This document shows positions 4,656 through 12,487 of a stretch of 64,000 nucleotides of DNA, piece after piece. Numbering within the stretch: position 1 is the stretch's first letter; each line of letters begins with the position of its first letter. The stretch comes from Bacteriovoracaceae bacterium (lineage in GTDB: Bacteria; Bdellovibrionota; Bacteriovoracia; Bacteriovoracales; Bacteriovoracaceae). Position numbers and translations under genes: made by a program. The stretch spans positions 1 to 64,000 of the forward strand of contig CANFHC010000015.1 in NCBI GenBank assembly GCA_947446575.1. Direction: 5' to 3'. The notes beneath the pieces were generated by a model that did not search any database, was not told where the DNA came from, and saw only the letters and a program-made list of their open reading frames with translations.

Positions 4656-5600
4656 TCATTTTTGATCAGGTTTTGCAAGTTCAACCAATGATTGAAGCAA
4701 GTCCCCTGAAGGAAGATTATCTAAGGCACTAAAAAGTGATAACAACTGCTCTCGGTTTTTTGCGCCACACAGTGCAACACTCAACTCATCAAAGCTCAGG
4801 TTGTATCCTAATGCTAGCTCGAGTCCCGAATGGTTATTCTTATCAAGCAGAGGCCAGATTTTATTCATCGCCTGAAATTTTGATTTATTATCAGCATTCT
4901 TCCACCATGGGGCCCATGAACGGCAATCACTTTGATCAAATTTTCTTTTTTCATCGACTCTCCCTGTGAGAATTCCTTTATCTAGCGTTCCCCAGCTCAT
5001 AAAGCTCATATTCTTTTCCTTCAAATAAGCAAATAAAGTTTCTCGAGCTCCATTTTGAAAAAAATTAAATTCACTTTGAACCACTTCAATGCGCTCGATC
5101 TCCGAGCCTTTGTCTAAGTCTTCTACACTCGTATTACAAAGACCTATATGTTTAATTTTTCCTTCATGCTTTGCTTTGGCAAGCACTTCCAGAGGACGCC
5201 TGATATCAACCTTGGCATCTGGCCAGTGAATCATATACAAATCTATATAATCAGTTTGTAGATCTTTTAAACTTTGCTCCAACATCTTTTGAGTTACTTC
5301 GGGAGTATTACTCATATCTACTCTTTTATTTTCATGCCAAGTAACGCCAGACTTTGAAACTAAAAATGTTTTGTCTCGATTTTGTTTAAACGCTTTTCCC
5401 ATTCGTATTTCCGATAGTCCAAATCCATAAATGGGAGCTGTATCAAATATGCGCATTCCTTTATCAAAAGCCAAGTGAAGTAAATCAATTGCTTCACCTT
5501 CTGAAATATCCCCAAATCCATATCCTCCCCCCTCTCCACTTATGGCCGCTCCGCCAAAGGCAATTGGAATGCTAGAAATGGTTTTAAGTAATTGCGTCAT
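4656..5600 (-). CDS. aldo/keto reductase
   Basis: A 314-residue NAD(P)H-dependent oxidoreductase with a TIM-barrel. The catalytic tetrad is visible: Asp and Tyr in FDTAPIYG, Lys in LVSKSG and His in YMIHWPD. The start is put at 5600 (MTQLLKT) because AAGGAAAGAAGG lies just upstream; ten extra residues in the longer frame have no ribosome site. It is the first gene of a probable group with the small secreted protein and the deacetylase. Substrate unknown; the family reduces aldehydes and sugars or acts as a voltage-channel beta-subunit homologue. Confidence 0.88.
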   Translation of the reverse strand: MTQLLKTISSIPIAFGGAAISGEGGGYGFGDISEGEAIDLLHLAFDKGMRIFDTAPIYGFGLSEIRMGKAFKQNRDKTFLVSKSGVTWHENKRVDMSNTPEVTQKMLEQSLKDLQTDYIDLYMIHWPDAKVDIRRPLEVLAKAKHEGKIKHIGLCNTSVEDLDKGSEIERIEVVQSEFNFFQNGARETLFAYLKEKNMSFMSWGTLDKGILTGRVDEKRKFDQSDCRSWAPWWKNADNKSKFQAMNKIWPLLDKNNHSGLELALGYNLSFDELSVALCGAKNREQLLSLFSALDNLPSGDLLQSLVELAKPDQK

Positions 5601-5694
5601 ATGCCTTCTTTCCTTGTGAAGTTTTTTCATTCGGTGTATTAATATCGTGATAGATAATCGCCCTCTTTTTTAAAACTGTACAGTTGGAAAACTC

Positions 5695-7008
5695 ATGTCT
5701 AGATTTTTTGCCATTTGTTTTTTTATCACCACTATGCCGCTTCTTTTTGCAGATGATACTACAAATTTAAATCCTGCACTCTCACAAATTACTAACTTAC
5801 AATTGAAATCTCGCGAACTCTCTCCCGATTTAAAAGTAGTGAGAAATTATCGCGCCCAAAAGTCTGCAGAGTCTTTCACTAGATCAAGTGATTTTCTTCC
5901 TCAAGCTTATTTAAATTTTAAACGTTCTAGAGATTTTTACGATGAAAGAAATGCTCCACTTAGAGCATTGGGAATTCAAACTTATGATTCGTCGTGGGGA
6001 ATCGATTATACTTGGAATCTTTTAAACTATGGGTTGATTCAATCGGCCAGAAAAACTTATAATGAAAAAGATAAAGCCGAACTCGATTTAAATAATAAAG
6101 AAAAAGCTTACTCCATTATATTTAATACCAACCTATTAAACTATCTCTTAGCTAAGTATAAAAAAGCCGCAGTTGAAAATTCTCTAAAGAAAGCTGATGC
6201 AGGAAAAAGAGAAGCTAAGCTAGGCTTTGAGTTAGGGCAAAAAACAAAATTAGATGTCTTAAGATCAGAAGCGAATATGGTTTCTCTTGATTCTAAAAAA
6301 ACAAGTTTTACTGATGAAGAACAAAATACGAAAAGTAAATTTATCGAATTTTCTGGTCTAGAAGAAGCTGATTTAAATTTTCTTGATAATCAAAATGAAG
6401 AACAAGTTCTTTCATTGATCAATGCTATCAGCAAAGCTGCTTCTATGAACGAGCGACCTGACTTCTCTAAAAGTCCGTTATTAGCAAGTCTAGTATATGA
6501 AGAAAAAATTAATAAAATTGCGCTCAACTCATTAACCGAAAAACAATGGCCTAATTTGAGAATTGAAGGAACGTATAATAATTCTGCTGATTCATTTTCT
6601 CAATCTTTCCGTAAACCTTACCGCACTCATACCGTTGCCCTTGTTCTAACCATTCCACTCTTTAATGGTGGAAGTTTAATTTCTTCTAACTTTGAAGAAT
6701 ACTTTGCAAAAAAACAAAATGAATACACGATGGAGCAAAAGAAACTTGAAACTAAAAATCAATTAACTAATACGCTTATCAAAATAAATGCATTGGAGAC
6801 CTTAGTCTCTTCACTCACATTAAATGTATCGCAATATGAAGAACTCTATCGACTTACTCAAAAGTCGTATCAATTAGGTAAAAGTACACTACTTGAACTC
6901 TTAGAAGTTCAAGACAACCTTCTCGATTCAAAAATTTCTTTGGCTCAAAATAAAATACAATTTTACACTCTCTCACAAAATTATTTGTGGCAGGCAGGAT
7001 TTCAATGA
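5695..7008 (+). CDS. TolC-family outer-membrane efflux protein
   Basis: A 437-residue protein with a signal peptide (first about 19 residues, ending LLFA-D) and the two-fold repeated helical pattern of outer-membrane efflux proteins: a first helical repeat about 50-215 and a second about 250-430 with GGSL and the final LLELLEVQDNLLDSKISLAQ. It would form the outer-membrane channel of the tripartite pump encoded by the next three genes. It opens a seven-gene run with overlapping stops and starts; the adaptor gene starts in an ATGA overlap with its stop. Confidence 0.9.
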   Translation: MSRFFAICFFITTMPLLFADDTTNLNPALSQITNLQLKSRELSPDLKVVRNYRAQKSAESFTRSSDFLPQAYLNFKRSRDFYDERNAPLRALGIQTYDSSWGIDYTWNLLNYGLIQSARKTYNEKDKAELDLNNKEKAYSIIFNTNLLNYLLAKYKKAAVENSLKKADAGKREAKLGFELGQKTKLDVLRSEANMVSLDSKKTSFTDEEQNTKSKFIEFSGLEEADLNFLDNQNEEQVLSLINAISKAASMNERPDFSKSPLLASLVYEEKINKIALNSLTEKQWPNLRIEGTYNNSADSFSQSFRKPYRTHTVALVLTIPLFNGGSLISSNFEEYFAKKQNEYTMEQKKLETKNQLTNTLIKINALETLVSSLTLNVSQYEELYRLTQKSYQLGKSTLLELLEVQDNLLDSKISLAQNKIQFYTLSQNYLWQAGFQ

Positions 7009-8021
7009 TTTCTAAAAACTTTCTCCTCCTCATTCCTTTGATTGTCTTTGTCTCTTGCAGTGACAAACCAAAAGTAGAGGCCATAAAACTTGCAACAGGT
7101 AGTGTTGAAAGCACTGTCACAACTATTAACTCTGGAACAGTAGAAGCACAATCCCAGGCAGAATTGGCTTTTGGAACAGTAGGTAGAATCTCTAAGATTT
7201 ATATGGGCCTTGGTTCAAAAGTTAAGTCAGGGGCCATTATTGCTGAATTGGAAAACGCAGACCTCAAAGCTATTTATGATGAAACACAAAAAGAGTTAGT
7301 TCGCGCTGAAGAGCTTTATAAAAATGGATTAGTCTCAATTGCTAATCTTGATAGTGCTAAAAGAGCGCGTGAAGTTGCTCGACTTAATTATGAAAAAACG
7401 GTTATGTCAGCTCCCTTTCAGGGAATGATCACCGCAATGGATTTAAAAGTTGGAGAATTTTATCAAAGTGCTACTGCAGTAGGGAAAAAACCAGCAGTGC
7501 AAATAATCGATTTAAAAAAACGCATCATCAAAGGTGAAATAGACGAAGTTGATTTACAAAAAGTTTCAATCGGCTTTGGAGCCAGAATAAAAATCCCGGC
7601 CTTAAAAAATCATGTCTTTAAAGCTCAAGTCACAAAAGTTGTACCCTTTGTTTCAACTGCCAAAGACCAAGATCGTACCAGCCAAATTGAACTAGAAATC
7701 ATTGAAGCAAAAGACGAAGCAGGAAATGATTTATTAATTCCTGTAGGAGCTTCGGCAGACGTAGAAATTATTAGTGAAACAAAAAATGTTGTAAAAATTC
7801 TTCCAACATCTGTCATGATTGGTACCGGAAAAACACGCTCACTTTATAAAATCATCAAAGGCAAGCTTGCTAAAAGTGAAGTTAAGCTGGGCCTTGGTAA
7901 CTATGAGCGTATGGAAGTTTTAGAAGGAATTAAAGAGGGTGAATTAGTTGCCCGCCCCTTAAATGGCATAGAAATGGTTGAAGGAATGAAAGTTGAGGCA
8001 AAAGAAATCACATGGCCTTAA
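7005..8021 (+). CDS. MacA/HlyD-type periplasmic adaptor lipoprotein
   Basis: A 338-residue membrane-fusion protein. The start at 7005 overlaps the TolC stop as ATGA; the frame also opens with a GTG at 6987 but that adds residues before the signal. The N-terminus has a lipoprotein signal ending LIVFVSC-S, so it is probably anchored through Cys. It then shows the biotinyl-lipoyl halves (SQAELAFGTVGRI and YEKTVMSAPFQGMI), a short helical hairpin between them, and beta-barrel and membrane-proximal parts to the end. It should link the TolC channel to the MacB-type permease. Confidence 0.9.
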   Translation: MISKNFLLLIPLIVFVSCSDKPKVEAIKLATGSVESTVTTINSGTVEAQSQAELAFGTVGRISKIYMGLGSKVKSGAIIAELENADLKAIYDETQKELVRAEELYKNGLVSIANLDSAKRAREVARLNYEKTVMSAPFQGMITAMDLKVGEFYQSATAVGKKPAVQIIDLKKRIIKGEIDEVDLQKVSIGFGARIKIPALKNHVFKAQVTKVVPFVSTAKDQDRTSQIELEIIEAKDEAGNDLLIPVGASADVEIISETKNVVKILPTSVMIGTGKTRSLYKIIKGKLAKSEVKLGLGNYERMEVLEGIKEGELVARPLNGIEMVEGMKVEAKEITWP

Positions 8022-8719
8022 TTGAATTAAAAAATATTCATAAAAATTTCATTATGGGTGAAGAAAATATTCACGCCTTAAACGCAATTAATCTCACTAT
8101 TAATGAAGGAGAATTTACTTCGATCGTTGGAACATCTGGATCTGGTAAATCAACCCTGATGAATATAATTGGTCTACTCGATTTACCAAGTCTTGGAACT
8201 TATGACTTAGATGGTATTAATACAACGTCGATGTCTGACGATGATCTTTCAAAATACAGAAACCAAAAAATTGGTTTTGTTTTTCAAAGTTTTAACCTGC
8301 TTCCAAAAGCTTCTGCTCTTAAAAATGTAGAAATGCCGATGCAGTACGCATCCGCTTACAATAATAAACTGACTGATGAGATGATTAGAAAAATGGCCTT
8401 GGATACACTTGAAAAAGTGGGCCTAGGAAGTCGAATTCATCATTTACCTAATGAGCTCTCAGGTGGACAACGTCAGCGTGTGGCCATCGCTCGAGCACTT
8501 GTTAACAACCCAAAAATACTTTTAGCAGACGAGCCGACAGGTGCACTTGATTCAAAAACAAGTGAAGAAATTTTACAACTTTTTCACGATTTAAATTCTC
8601 AAGGTGTAACCGTCATTATCGTTACTCACGATAACAATATTGCAAAACGATGCCGCAGAATTCTTCGTATGAATGATGGGGTTATTAAAGACGAAGACAA
8701 TAGCGGAGCAACCAGATGA
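8012..8719 (+). CDS. ABC transporter ATP-binding protein, MacB/LolD type
   Basis: A 235-residue ATPase with Walker A GTSGSGKST, Q-loop VFQSFNL, signature LSGGQRQR, Walker B ILLADEP and H-loop VTHD. Size and sequence match the stand-alone ATPases of MacB- and LolD-type systems. It overlaps the adaptor gene by ten bases and the permease gene by four (ATGA), so the three are translationally coupled. It powers the efflux complex from the cytosolic face. Confidence 0.93.
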   Translation: MALIELKNIHKNFIMGEENIHALNAINLTINEGEFTSIVGTSGSGKSTLMNIIGLLDLPSLGTYDLDGINTTSMSDDDLSKYRNQKIGFVFQSFNLLPKASALKNVEMPMQYASAYNNKLTDEMIRKMALDTLEKVGLGSRIHHLPNELSGGQRQRVAIARALVNNPKILLADEPTGALDSKTSEEILQLFHDLNSQGVTVIIVTHDNNIAKRCRRILRMNDGVIKDEDNSGATR

Positions 8720-9924
8720 TTTTTAGAAAAATCTTGGTCAACTCGGCTGAAGCCATTGTCGAAAATAAACTCCGCTCAGCGCTTACAATGCTTGGAATGA
8801 TTATAGGTGTAATGGCCGTGATCCTACTCGTTTCTGTCGGGACAGGAGCAAAACGTTATATCACTTCCGAGTTTGAAAGCTTAGGAACGAACGTTATTCT
8901 CATTCAGCCAGGAAAAACTGACAAAAAAAATTCCATGGGTCCTCCAGTTGCTTCTAGTAAAGGAAAGCTGACAATGGCCGACGTTGAGGCTTTGCAAAAA
9001 AATTCTCAAAGTTTATCTGCCGTTTCTGGTGTTATGTTTGGAGCAGGAGTTGTTAAAAATGAAAGCTCAACAAATAATTTAAATATTCTTGGGGCCAATG
9101 ATCAATTTAATCGTATTTTTAATATGACGATTATTGAAGGAAATTTTTTCTCAAGAGAAGATGAAGAAGCTGGAAGAAGAGTGGCAGTTCTTGGATATAC
9201 TATCAAAGAAAATCTTTTTGGTTCGGGAAATGCACTTGGAAAACTCGTTAAAGTTAACGAAAGTGAACACAGAGTTATTGGGGTAATCAAACCTACTGGA
9301 GATAAACTAGGCTTTAACATTGATGATATGGTTTTTATACCAACTAAATCGTCTCTGCGCTTATTTAATACCGATCGACTATTTGGTATTAGAGCTACAG
9401 CAAAATCGCGCTCAGGACTAGATGATGCGGTTAAAGAATTAACCGAAGTATTAAAAGAGCGCCATAATGGTGAAGAAGATTTCACTATCGTCACGCAGGT
9501 AACGATGATGGAAAGTATGAATACTATTTTAAACATGCTCACCTATGCTCTTGGGGCGATTGCCTTTATCTCAATGCTCGTTGGAGGTATTGGGATTATG
9601 AATATCATGCTCGTGTCTGTTACAGAAAGAACACGGGAAATTGGAATCAGACGCGCAGTTGGAGCTAGACGAAGTGATATTTTAAAGCAATTTATGATTG
9701 AAGCCGTGGTCATTTCTGTTTCGGGCGGACTTTTGGGAATTTTTATTTCACTCTTAATTACCTACACACTTTATTTTTTCATTCCAGGCTTTGATATGCG
9801 TCCTCCCTTTTGGATTATTCCTCCTTCATTTTTTCTCTCTTTTTTTACGGGAGTTATCTTTGGTGTATGGCCTGCGAGAAAGGCAGCTCATATTCAAACC
9901 ATAGATGCACTAAGGTACGAATAA
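8716..9924 (+). CDS. ABC transporter permease, MacB type
   Basis: A 402-residue FtsX/MacB-type permease: one membrane segment at about 20-40, a large periplasmic MacB_PCD domain at about 45-265, then three membrane segments near 275-300, 325-355 and 370-390. The motif TERTREIGIRRAVGAR between the second and third segments is typical. With the separate ATPase it equals a split MacB. Substrate class (macrolide, peptide, lipopeptide or siderophore) cannot be told. Its TAA shares one base with the next gene's ATG. Confidence 0.92.
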   Translation: MIFRKILVNSAEAIVENKLRSALTMLGMIIGVMAVILLVSVGTGAKRYITSEFESLGTNVILIQPGKTDKKNSMGPPVASSKGKLTMADVEALQKNSQSLSAVSGVMFGAGVVKNESSTNNLNILGANDQFNRIFNMTIIEGNFFSREDEEAGRRVAVLGYTIKENLFGSGNALGKLVKVNESEHRVIGVIKPTGDKLGFNIDDMVFIPTKSSLRLFNTDRLFGIRATAKSRSGLDDAVKELTEVLKERHNGEEDFTIVTQVTMMESMNTILNMLTYALGAIAFISMLVGGIGIMNIMLVSVTERTREIGIRRAVGARRSDILKQFMIEAVVISVSGGLLGIFISLLITYTLYFFIPGFDMRPPFWIIPPSFFLSFFTGVIFGVWPARKAAHIQTIDALRYE

Positions 9925-10985
9925 TGAAATTACTTACGTTTGCTCATCGAGGAGAGGCCCAAGCTTTTTTAGCAGCTTTTGTTTTTAAGCCTGTAGAATT
10001 TTTCTTTGATGGTCTTCTCAAAAGTGATGAATACTATTTATTAATCACCGGCGAAGGTCCGCACACCGCCAGTGAAAAAACGATTACGGTGCTTGCAAAG
10101 TTTAACGAAGAAATCACAGAAGTTTTAAATATCGGAGTTGCTGGAAGCTTAACAAATAAATTAAAAAAACAAGACCTTGTTTGGGTAAGAACAGCTTATG
10201 CTCATCATGCTGAACGACTAGAATTTAAATCGTTTTCAAGTTTAAATCCAAAAGACATGAAGTCCCCTAATGACTGCATGACTGCTTTTAGTCGCGTGCT
10301 TAGTAATGAAGAAAAAAAGAAACTTTCTCATTTTGCTAGTCTTGTTGATCGTGAACTTTGGGCTGTAGCATCAGCTGCTAATCTTTTCAAAATACCTTTT
10401 AGAGCACTTAAAATTATCTCCGATGACTTAACTCCAACGGAAGCCGATATCTGTAAATTCGTTAAAGAGGAAGCTCCCCTTTTTTCAGAAAAATTATTAA
10501 CTGAATTTAAAACTACAGAAACAGAAACGGAAGCACTAAAAGTACTCCCAATCGAAAAAGAAAATATTTTTCTTTCTGATAAAGCTTTTTATTTTACAAC
10601 TTCTCAAGAAAGAAAATTACAATCGATGCTGGACGGATTAAAATTAAAAGGAATCTCGCCTGAGTCCCTAATGAAAAATGAATCTATTCAAAAAATAAAA
10701 GAGACTGAAAAGTCTCCGAAAGATAAGACTCGTCTTTTATTGCTTTTTTTAGGCGATCAACTCAATCCTATCGCTGTAAAAATCAGAGCATCTCTTGAAG
10801 AAATACTTTCTCCTTTATCAGACGCTAAGATTACTTCTACATTTGATTCTGCTTTTGAGGATGATTGGTTAAACTTGAGCGTGCGCATTCAATCATCAAG
10901 AGATTTGGAAAAAGTAAAAAACTCCTTAAAAATATTTTCGTACGAAGACTTCAAAAAAATTCTAGATGGTCAATTCGATGTTTGA
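9924..10985 (+). CDS. nucleoside phosphorylase/nucleosidase-like protein with extra C-terminal domain
   Basis: A 353-residue protein. Residues 1 to about 190 resemble the MTA/SAH nucleosidase and futalosine hydrolase fold: RGEAQAF near the start (candidate catalytic acid), the glycine-rich NIGVAGSL, the purine-site DRELWAVASAA (Glu of the usual ME-E motif) and IISDD (catalytic Asp). So the key acids seem present. The remaining about 160 residues match nothing I recognise. The start at 9924 overlaps the permease stop by one base (TAATG), with AAGG upstream. Its position inside the efflux operon suggests it handles a purine-type metabolite linked to the pump or to the radical SAM protein that follows; this is inference. 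Confidence 0.65.
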   Translation: MKLLTFAHRGEAQAFLAAFVFKPVEFFFDGLLKSDEYYLLITGEGPHTASEKTITVLAKFNEEITEVLNIGVAGSLTNKLKKQDLVWVRTAYAHHAERLEFKSFSSLNPKDMKSPNDCMTAFSRVLSNEEKKKLSHFASLVDRELWAVASAANLFKIPFRALKIISDDLTPTEADICKFVKEEAPLFSEKLLTEFKTTETETEALKVLPIEKENIFLSDKAFYFTTSQERKLQSMLDGLKLKGISPESLMKNESIQKIKETEKSPKDKTRLLLLFLGDQLNPIAVKIRASLEEILSPLSDAKITSTFDSAFEDDWLNLSVRIQSSRDLEKVKNSLKIFSYEDFKKILDGQFDV

Positions 10986-12024
10986 AATTATTTATATTGA
11001 AAATCAATTAATCGATCATCCTAAAGTTTTAGAGATTTTAAAAAAGTATCCCAATTCAGAAATCAAAAAAATAAACAAAGTAGAAGATGTTTTTGGTAGA
11101 GTCAAAAAACCTTACTTGCAAAAACGCACGAACCTAAATTTATTTTTAGGTGAAAAAAAAGGACAACTCGTAAAGCTTGCTCCTCCTGCCTATGGTCTCT
11201 CTGGCGAACCTCATTACTATTTTGTCCATGCTTATAATTGCATCTATGAATGCAACTATTGTTACCTGCAAGGCTACTTCCATTCTCCAGATATAGTTTT
11301 ATATTTGAATCATGAAGAGATCGCGCTTGAAATAAAAAAAGTTGCCGTTGATTATCACGCAAAAAACCCCGAACACATTGTCTGGTTTCATGCCGGTGAA
11401 TATAGTGATTCCCTAGCTCTCACGAGTTTAAGTGGTGAACTTAATCATTATTTTAAACTTTTCCGCGAGCTTTCCAATTGCAATCTAGAACTCAGAACAA
11501 AATCAGTTAATATCAAAGAACTTTTAAAAGAGGAGCCGCTTTCAAATATTATAACAAGCTTCTCCTTGTCGCCAGCTCACCGAATTAAGAGCAACGACTT
11601 AAAAACGCCACCACTGAAAAGTCGCCTAGAGGCCATCAGAGAATTAAACGCAAAAGGTTTTCCTATTGGAATCCATTTTGATCCAATCATACATGATGAA
11701 CAATTTATTGAATCGTATGAAGAGCTAGCAGATCTGCTTTTAGAACATATTCCCGCTAATAAAATCCGCTATATCTCGCTTGGGGTCGTGCGTTTTACCA
11801 AAGAAGTTTACCAAAAAGTTCAACGAAATTACCCTGAGTCAGATTTATTGGCCCAAGAATTTGTGAGAAGTTTTGATAACAAAATCCGCTACAATCGTCC
11901 AATGCGGCTTTGGATGCTTCAAAAAGTAAAACAACAACTCGTCGATAGAGGTATTCCAGAAGAGCGTATTTATCTTTGTATGGAAGACACTGAATTGGAT
12001 CCAATGAATAAAACTAATGATTAA
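10978..12024 (+). CDS. spore photoproduct lyase-like radical SAM protein
   Basis: A 348-residue radical SAM enzyme with the cluster motif CxxxCxxC at C88, C92 and C95, followed by Y-L-Q-G-Y as in the SPL family, whose classical members repair the thymine spore photoproduct. Length matches Bacillus SplB (about 340). At the place where SplB has AACTSD with its hydrogen-donor Cys141, this protein has AGEYSD, that is Glu141, so the classical mechanism may not apply. The start at 10978 overlaps the previous gene by eight bases; an ATG four codons earlier is possible. The gene lies in an efflux operon of a bacterium with no sign of sporulation here. Confidence 0.82.
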   Translation: MFEIIYIENQLIDHPKVLEILKKYPNSEIKKINKVEDVFGRVKKPYLQKRTNLNLFLGEKKGQLVKLAPPAYGLSGEPHYYFVHAYNCIYECNYCYLQGYFHSPDIVLYLNHEEIALEIKKVAVDYHAKNPEHIVWFHAGEYSDSLALTSLSGELNHYFKLFRELSNCNLELRTKSVNIKELLKEEPLSNIITSFSLSPAHRIKSNDLKTPPLKSRLEAIRELNAKGFPIGIHFDPIIHDEQFIESYEELADLLLEHIPANKIRYISLGVVRFTKEVYQKVQRNYPESDLLAQEFVRSFDNKIRYNRPMRLWMLQKVKQQLVDRGIPEERIYLCMEDTELDPMNKTND

Positions 12025-12487
12025 AAATAAAGACCTTCAAGAATTTGGTTTTATCGTTTTAGATTTCCCACTAGAAGAAATAGTTCTCAAGTTATTAATC
12101 AAAAAATCTTGGAAAGAACTTGATCAGTACTTTTTAAATATTTCAAAACCCAATGGGCTGCTTAGAAATTTTCTCAATCAATACTTAGATTTTGCTACTC
12201 TAGAACATATTATTGCCATCAGAAGTGCTCCAGATGATGAAGACGGAATATGGCATGATGATGGCTCACGTTTTCTAGGATTTTCTCTTTCACTAAATCG
12301 CAACCATGAAAATATAATTGGTGGAGAACTGCATTTTAAGAAAAAAGAATCTACTCACACAGAAATATTCACGCCATTACCTTACGGGAAAATTGTCCTT
12401 TTTCTCTCCGGCATCCATGGTTATGAACACATGGTAAGTGCTGTAACAAGCCAAGAGAGAATCGTGATTGCTGGTTGGTGCAGTTAG
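12017..12487 (+). CDS. 2-oxoglutarate/Fe(II)-dependent oxygenase family protein
   Basis: A 156-residue protein with the double-stranded beta-helix iron motif: HDD in IWHDDGSRFLGFSL (His and Asp ligands), GGEL for the turn, and distal His in GYEHMVSAVTSQERIVIAGW, where the Arg would bind 2-oxoglutarate. This resembles the prolyl-4-hydroxylase-like 2OG-Fe(II) oxygenases. It overlaps the radical SAM gene by eight bases and ends the seven-gene operon. Substrate unknown; it could hydroxylate the same molecule handled by the neighbouring enzymes. Confidence 0.75.
   Translation: MIKNKDLQEFGFIVLDFPLEEIVLKLLIKKSWKELDQYFLNISKPNGLLRNFLNQYLDFATLEHIIAIRSAPDDEDGIWHDDGSRFLGFSLSLNRNHENIIGGELHFKKKESTHTEIFTPLPYGKIVLFLSGIHGYEHMVSAVTSQERIVIAGWCS

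Follow-up and report, generated by a model that had tools for sequence, protein, structure and literature searches.

A spore photoproduct lyase-like radical SAM protein of Bacteriovoracaceae with glutamate at the donor-cysteine position and an MTAN-fold nucleosidase partner

The window analysed here, a stretch of 64,000 nucleotides from a Bacteriovoracaceae bacterium, encodes a radical SAM protein that resembles spore photoproduct lyase (SPL) and carries a glutamate where Bacillus SplB has its hydrogen-donor cysteine, Cys141, which raises the question of whether this protein carries out a different radical reaction. A preliminary description had recognized the likeness to SPL from the cluster motif and the overall length, and this holds: the product, referred to as type A, has its three cluster cysteines at C88, C92 and C95 and matches PF20903 (SPL) with 92.3 bits against a cut-off of 27. 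The ORF listing and translation give an ATG at 10978, a stop at 12022–12024 and 348 aa; the ORF caller prefers an ATG 12 bp earlier, and the start at 10978, which is common to the relatives, was chosen. The AF2 model (pLDDT 89.9, built from 64 sequences) superimposes on the Geobacillus (Gt) SPL, PDB 4rh0, with Z 33.3 over 320 residues at 2.5 Å and 21% identity, the next-best fold being the PFL-activating enzyme at Z 15.5. The C88-x3-C92-x2-C95 motif and Tyr94 are invariant or nearly so in alignment A2, which holds 64 type A rows of 50–89% identity, and Tyr96 is kept in at least 90%; Tyr94 and Tyr96 are the counterparts of the SplB relay tyrosines Tyr97 and Tyr99. Close similarity to verified SPLs, named beforehand as grounds for dropping the idea of another reaction, was not found: identity is 20–27%, and the protein scores 90.5 bits against the 400 demanded by the SPL equivalog TIGR04070 and 86.1 against 437.55 for TIGR03886. 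Spo0A_C matched the B. subtilis positive control but nothing in the window's genome, which is 95.5% complete. Type A is a genuine SPL-fold enzyme that two tested features set apart from the verified lyases. It shares with SplB the whole fold, the cluster motif and the relay tyrosines, and differs from it in the residue at the donor position, in overall identity, in its nucleosidase partner and in the want of a Spo0A_C match in its genome.

Table 1. Features of the window and types of SPL-like protein, with the basis or occurrence of each.
Feature	Positions	Strand	Basis or occurrence
NUC, MTAN-fold nucleosidase, overlaps SPL-like gene by 8 bp	9921..10985	+	PF01048, AF2, Foldseek
SPL-like radical SAM protein (type A), 348 aa	10978..12024	+	PF20903, AF2 model
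CxxxCxxC cluster motif, Cys88/92/95, with Tyr94 and Tyr96	11239..11262	+	alignment A2
Glu141 codon GAA, directly after strand 135–139 (DSSP)	11398..11400	+	phmmer, MAFFT, hhalign
Cys334 (Y-x-C-M-E), sole invariant non-cluster Cys	11977..11979	+	64/64 rows of A2
2OG-Fe(II) oxygenase-like protein, overlaps SPL-like gene by 8 bp	12017..12487	+	PF13640, 30.1 bits vs 27
Type A: motif WFHAGE, Glu			93/129 genomes
Type B: motif GTGQSSDSL, Gln, N-terminal extension			16/129 genomes
Type C: motif GTGE, Glu			other Bdellovibrionota and Calditrichota-like genomes
Type D: motif SYDTD, Tyr			Fusobacterium vincentii, two stool scaffolds, seven genomes of one 9-genome phylum

The original reading of the AGEYSD segment as placing a glutamate at the Cys141 position is borne out by phmmer to SPL chains, MAFFT and hhalign, all of which align Glu141 with SplB Cys141; in hhalign AGE of type A lies over SCT of B. 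velezensis SplB. All 41 type A proteins compared, the window's among them, have this residue, as do all 64 rows of A2 at the identities given above, and it is thus not a sequencing accident. At the end of strand 2, Glu141 stands in what we take to be the place of the radical SAM GGE motif, and because hhalign of type A with E. coli PflA aligns the cluster region only, this equivalence is positional. By homology to Gt C140, which PMC3742179 places 4.5 Å from the SP methylene, position 141 would be expected to face the active site.

The glutamate is nevertheless not the distinctive state that the preliminary description supposed. SPL-like proteins were sorted by motif, among those inspected, into four types (Table 1), with PF20903 proteins present in 109 of the 129 genomes of the class search, all labelled as one family (type A in 93, type B in 16), and in 166 of 292 genomes of a phylum search at a completeness of at least 85%. 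Glutamate at the donor position recurs in type C and in the TIGR03886 group, five of whose proteins read LGEN, IGEN or VGEN, and the suggestion that Glu141 members might form a clade fails, as TIGR03886, A and C do not group together in the tree. In this 55-row tree A, B, D and TIGR03886 each form a single group with full support and C is not one group; B and C come together at 99/94, and A pairs with D as its sister at 91/77, a support that falls short of the tool's star level. Among the proteins compared, a cysteine at the donor position was confined to B. velezensis SplB and its sister group of Nostoc and Granulicella proteins. Judged from these sequences, glutamate at this position is neither a clade mark nor an oddity, and cysteine is the local exception. 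TIGR03886, named ‘spore photoproduct lyase family protein’, shares with type A the SPL family and the glutamate, and differs in its separate clade and in the low score of type A against its model. Two tandem genes of that name lie behind repAB on a Roseomonas plasmid (L107, 1471–3592), and at two of eight listed type B loci (L043, L047) the SPL-like gene has neighbours that look, by eye, like lipA and lipB. Other homologues are described in the literature, as LexA-regulated splB homologues of alpha- and beta-proteobacteria (PMC3323433) and as a photolyase/SPL homologue in Nautilia (PMC2628731). The Fusobacterium protein used as a query against viral contigs found no relative.

On its own, a missing Cys141 need not mean a different reaction, since the SPL of C. 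acetobutylicum has its donor elsewhere, at C74 on the opposite side of the pocket, as described in PMC5368176; the C140A/S76C substitutions carried by PDB 4rh0 are taken to mimic this donor. An alternative donor cysteine, which the preliminary description held would undo its case, is found in aligned type A proteins neither at the SplB site nor near the equivalent of Gt S76 (14 of 14 rows, the C. acetobutylicum sequence itself lying outside the alignment). With no cysteine at either place, a SplB-type cysteine relay would be unlikely in type A. With the SplB variants C141A and Y99F about one 5'-dA is formed for each repair, which PMC3742179 reads as absence of SAM regeneration, and going by these accounts one would expect type A to use up SAM, unless C334 or a tyrosine substitutes as donor. 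The proposal of a different radical reaction thus remains plausible, with no cysteine found at either site, but is not sustained by the absence of Cys141 on its own. C334 is common to types A, B and C and absent from D and SplB. A CCN motif precedes the cluster by 11–12 residues in types B and C, near a C74-like position, and type D has scattered cysteines in the region preceding the cluster. Ahead of the CCN of types B and C comes a conserved CP (as in L047 and L195), and these cysteines possibly form a second metal or redox site.

A better argument for a different reaction than the missing Cys141 is the dedicated nucleosidase encoded directly upstream, on which the preliminary description was silent. 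NUC matches PF01048 with 46.8 bits against a cut-off of 25.1, and its AF2 model (pLDDT 93.7) finds H. pylori futalosine hydrolase/MTAN as best Foldseek match at 1.1e-13. It comprises a nucleosidase domain (residues ~1–195) and a C-terminal helical and hairpin domain (~200–354). The residues E12, E145 and D168 align with the catalytic E12, E174 and D197 of E. coli MTAN and are invariant in the 60 rows of alignment A3. Sharing fold and triad with MTAN and futalosine hydrolase, NUC differs from them in the extra C-terminal domain of ~150 aa, in its pairing with one radical SAM enzyme and in scores far under the NCBIfam cut-offs (29.3 against 169 bits for the MTAN equivalog); the HpnG and futalosine hydrolase models match it weakly, at 9.7e-7 and 1.4e-6. 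The window's genome contains AdoHcy hydrolase and, as named from sequence, appears to encode PNP, MTA phosphorylase and AMP nucleosidase as well, which should make NUC dispensable for MTA and SAH. The link of an extra MTAN-type enzyme with a single radical enzyme makes the adenosyl product of the latter the likely substrate.

The pairing is near-obligate in type A. NUC lies upstream, on the same strand and within 100 bp of the SPL-like gene, at all 41 type A loci (40 retrieved and that of the window), and was present in 75 of 80 named loci, a set which shares species with the former and in which the five misses have at most 282 bp of DNA upstream of the SPL-like gene. Among the 93 type A genomes of the class search, 91 have NUC and 89 have it adjacent; in the four non-adjacent cases (G014, G026, G092, G105) the SPL-like gene is no more than 283 bp from a contig end. 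Conversely, one of the 20 genomes without an SPL-like gene (G019) has a NUC, which is full-length. The same pair occurs in four Calditrichota-labelled MAGs and one unassigned MAG, in whose phyla some SPL-like gene was found in 9 of 9 and 31 of 40 genomes searched. The 2OG oxygenase downstream is a frequent but non-constant neighbour in Bacteriovoracaceae, being near 29 of the 41 type A loci and absent near the four Calditrichota-labelled ones. Upstream of NUC, at 5695–9924 of the window, TolC-, MacA- and MacB-like genes named by eye form overlapping ORFs running into NUC. An efflux pump was rejected as part of the system: of the type A loci with 1.5 kb or more of upstream DNA, no more than 4 of 40 and 6 of 70 have pump genes there, and the arrangement is therefore lineage-specific. 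Searches of the open PMC library found no paper on the pairing of an SPL-like enzyme with a nucleosidase. It is this pairing that constitutes the finding; the glutamate is ordinary.

The pairing extends to type D, whose two proteins have far less sequence in common with the type A pair. In one small phylum a nucleosidase, the SPL-like protein and an SDR are encoded in that order at 7 of 7 loci, these nucleosidases matching the NUC profile at E 4e-9 to 2e-18. In Fusobacterium a single ORF of 623 aa joins a nucleosidase half to an SPL half and is followed by an SDR gene; the nucleosidase half scores 8e-4 (NCBIfam) and 0.016 (Pfam) and was missed by the NUC profile at E 0.05, and the alignment of its triad is a firmer sign than these profile scores. 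L105 has nucleosidase, SPL-like and SDR genes in a row; at L106 the same three are rearranged and the partner, cut to 160 aa and without a nucleosidase family match, is probably inactive. Such adjacency together with one fusion suggests that two enzymes here take part in an uncharacterised reaction, and not in the repair of spore DNA.

Beside 35 type B, 38 type C and 8 SplB/TIGR03886 loci the nucleosidase part of NUC found no match in flanks mostly of ~1.5 kb and up to 5 kb. In seven of the 16 type B genomes a nucleosidase of ~200 aa persists that lacks the C-terminal domain and lies away from the SPL-like gene, so that here the pair was probably broken up and the nucleosidase kept; the short gene (L266–L272) is near an aldo-keto reductase gene, which is also found near the window's pair (4656–5630). 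Type C presents another partner. At 27 of 30 loci of Bdellovibrionota (L195–L223) a family of ~265 aa is encoded directly upstream, mostly overlapping; it has no convincing Pfam match and no nucleosidase domain, and is found at none of eight Calditrichota-like type C loci. Its C-terminus resembles that of NUC, with a best hmmsearch value of 7.3e-5 (5 of 38 type C loci at 0.0033 or below) and 2.9e-4 at a probability of 40% in hhalign, while the reverse search with a profile of 26 of the 27 members found 0 of 40 type A and 0 of 10 type D partners. A partner domain common to types A and C, with exchangeable N-terminal parts, may be taken as a lead. A kinship of the type C partner with ParB, an impression by eye, is unsupported: one of 26 members matched at E 0.036 (Pfam), with no match to plasmid RepB and none in the PDB.

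We give about an even chance to the reading that the type A enzyme is half of a two-protein unit with NUC, in which SAM is consumed and the adenosyl product is hydrolysed by NUC. The [4Fe-4S] cluster would cleave SAM to the 5'-deoxyadenosyl radical, with Glu141 presumably holding SAM at the GGE-type position and not serving as hydrogen donor. Without a Cys–Tyr relay SAM would not be rebuilt, and each turnover would leave an adenosyl product, more probably 5'-deoxyadenosine than an adduct, and NUC may hydrolyse it to adenine and a sugar. Such hydrolysis would make the step irreversible and remove an inhibitor of the radical enzyme, inhibition of radical SAM enzymes by 5'-dAdo being described in PMC8102628. 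Several observations count against this reading. TIGR03886 lacks both donor cysteines, yet shows no NUC match at five loci, so that a missing donor and a nucleosidase do not always go together; type B genomes with a short nucleosidase elsewhere show that the nucleosidase can serve without type A; and G019 has a full-length NUC with no SPL-like gene beside it, as L106 has a shortened partner. Adjacency may then have less to do with catalysis than with a partner domain that is shared. If so, the SPL-like enzyme would need the C-terminal domain of its partner, for docking or substrate delivery, and the nucleosidase would be a recruited general salvage enzyme. This agrees with the type C partner, similar in its C-terminus and devoid of a nucleosidase domain, with the loss of that domain from the short NUCs away from SPL-like genes and with L106, but the C-terminal match is weak and fails in the reverse search, the triad is conserved in every row of A3, and we regard the explanation as most improbable of those weighed.

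A lyase repairing DNA or nucleotide lesions with C334 or a tyrosine as the hydrogen donor is a doubtful alternative. The SPL fold, both relay tyrosines, the invariance of C334 in type A and the use of C74 in C. acetobutylicum (PMC5368176) argue for it; the score well under the SPL equivalog cut-off, the lack of an endospore marker (Spo0A_C) in the genome and the missing CME motif of type D argue against it, and the nucleosidase partner and the fusion would be left unexplained. Unlikely, too, is an adenosyl-addition pair, in which the 5'-deoxyadenosyl radical would be added to an unsaturated acceptor, NUC would strip adenine from the adduct and the SDR (type D) or the 2OG oxygenase (type A) would trim the ribosyl product. 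The logic is that of HpnH and HpnG, an adenosylhopane synthase and its nucleosidase, adenosylation by type A being putative. However, HpnH is a member of another radical SAM family than SPL, and we know of no SPL-fold enzyme that adenosylates. The dedicated or fused nucleosidase, the downstream SDR or oxygenase and the weak likeness of NUC to the HpnG and futalosine hydrolase models are consistent with such an addition; the 2OG oxygenase missing at 12 of 41 loci and the persistence of a short NUC without type A are not. The futalosine menaquinone route was rejected, the MqnE model having no match in the window's genome. The precedent itself, in hopanoids, is described in PMC12583986.

Beyond the two-protein unit of type A and NUC, we think it unlikely that types A and D represent a new radical SAM activity that turns the adenosyl group of SAM into a ribose-derived building block, finished by the SDR or the 2OG oxygenase, with spore repair as a derived branch in which cysteine replaced the GGE-type glutamate. 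If true, types A and D with their dedicated nucleosidase, fused in Fusobacterium, would constitute another radical SAM route coupled to a nucleosidase. A large part of the SPL family does not resemble SplB, and the donor cysteine thereby gains an evolutionary context. The pairing offers a testable handle on the function of a gene that 109 of the 129 genomes carry as type A or B, in a group to which Bacteriovorax-type predators belong.
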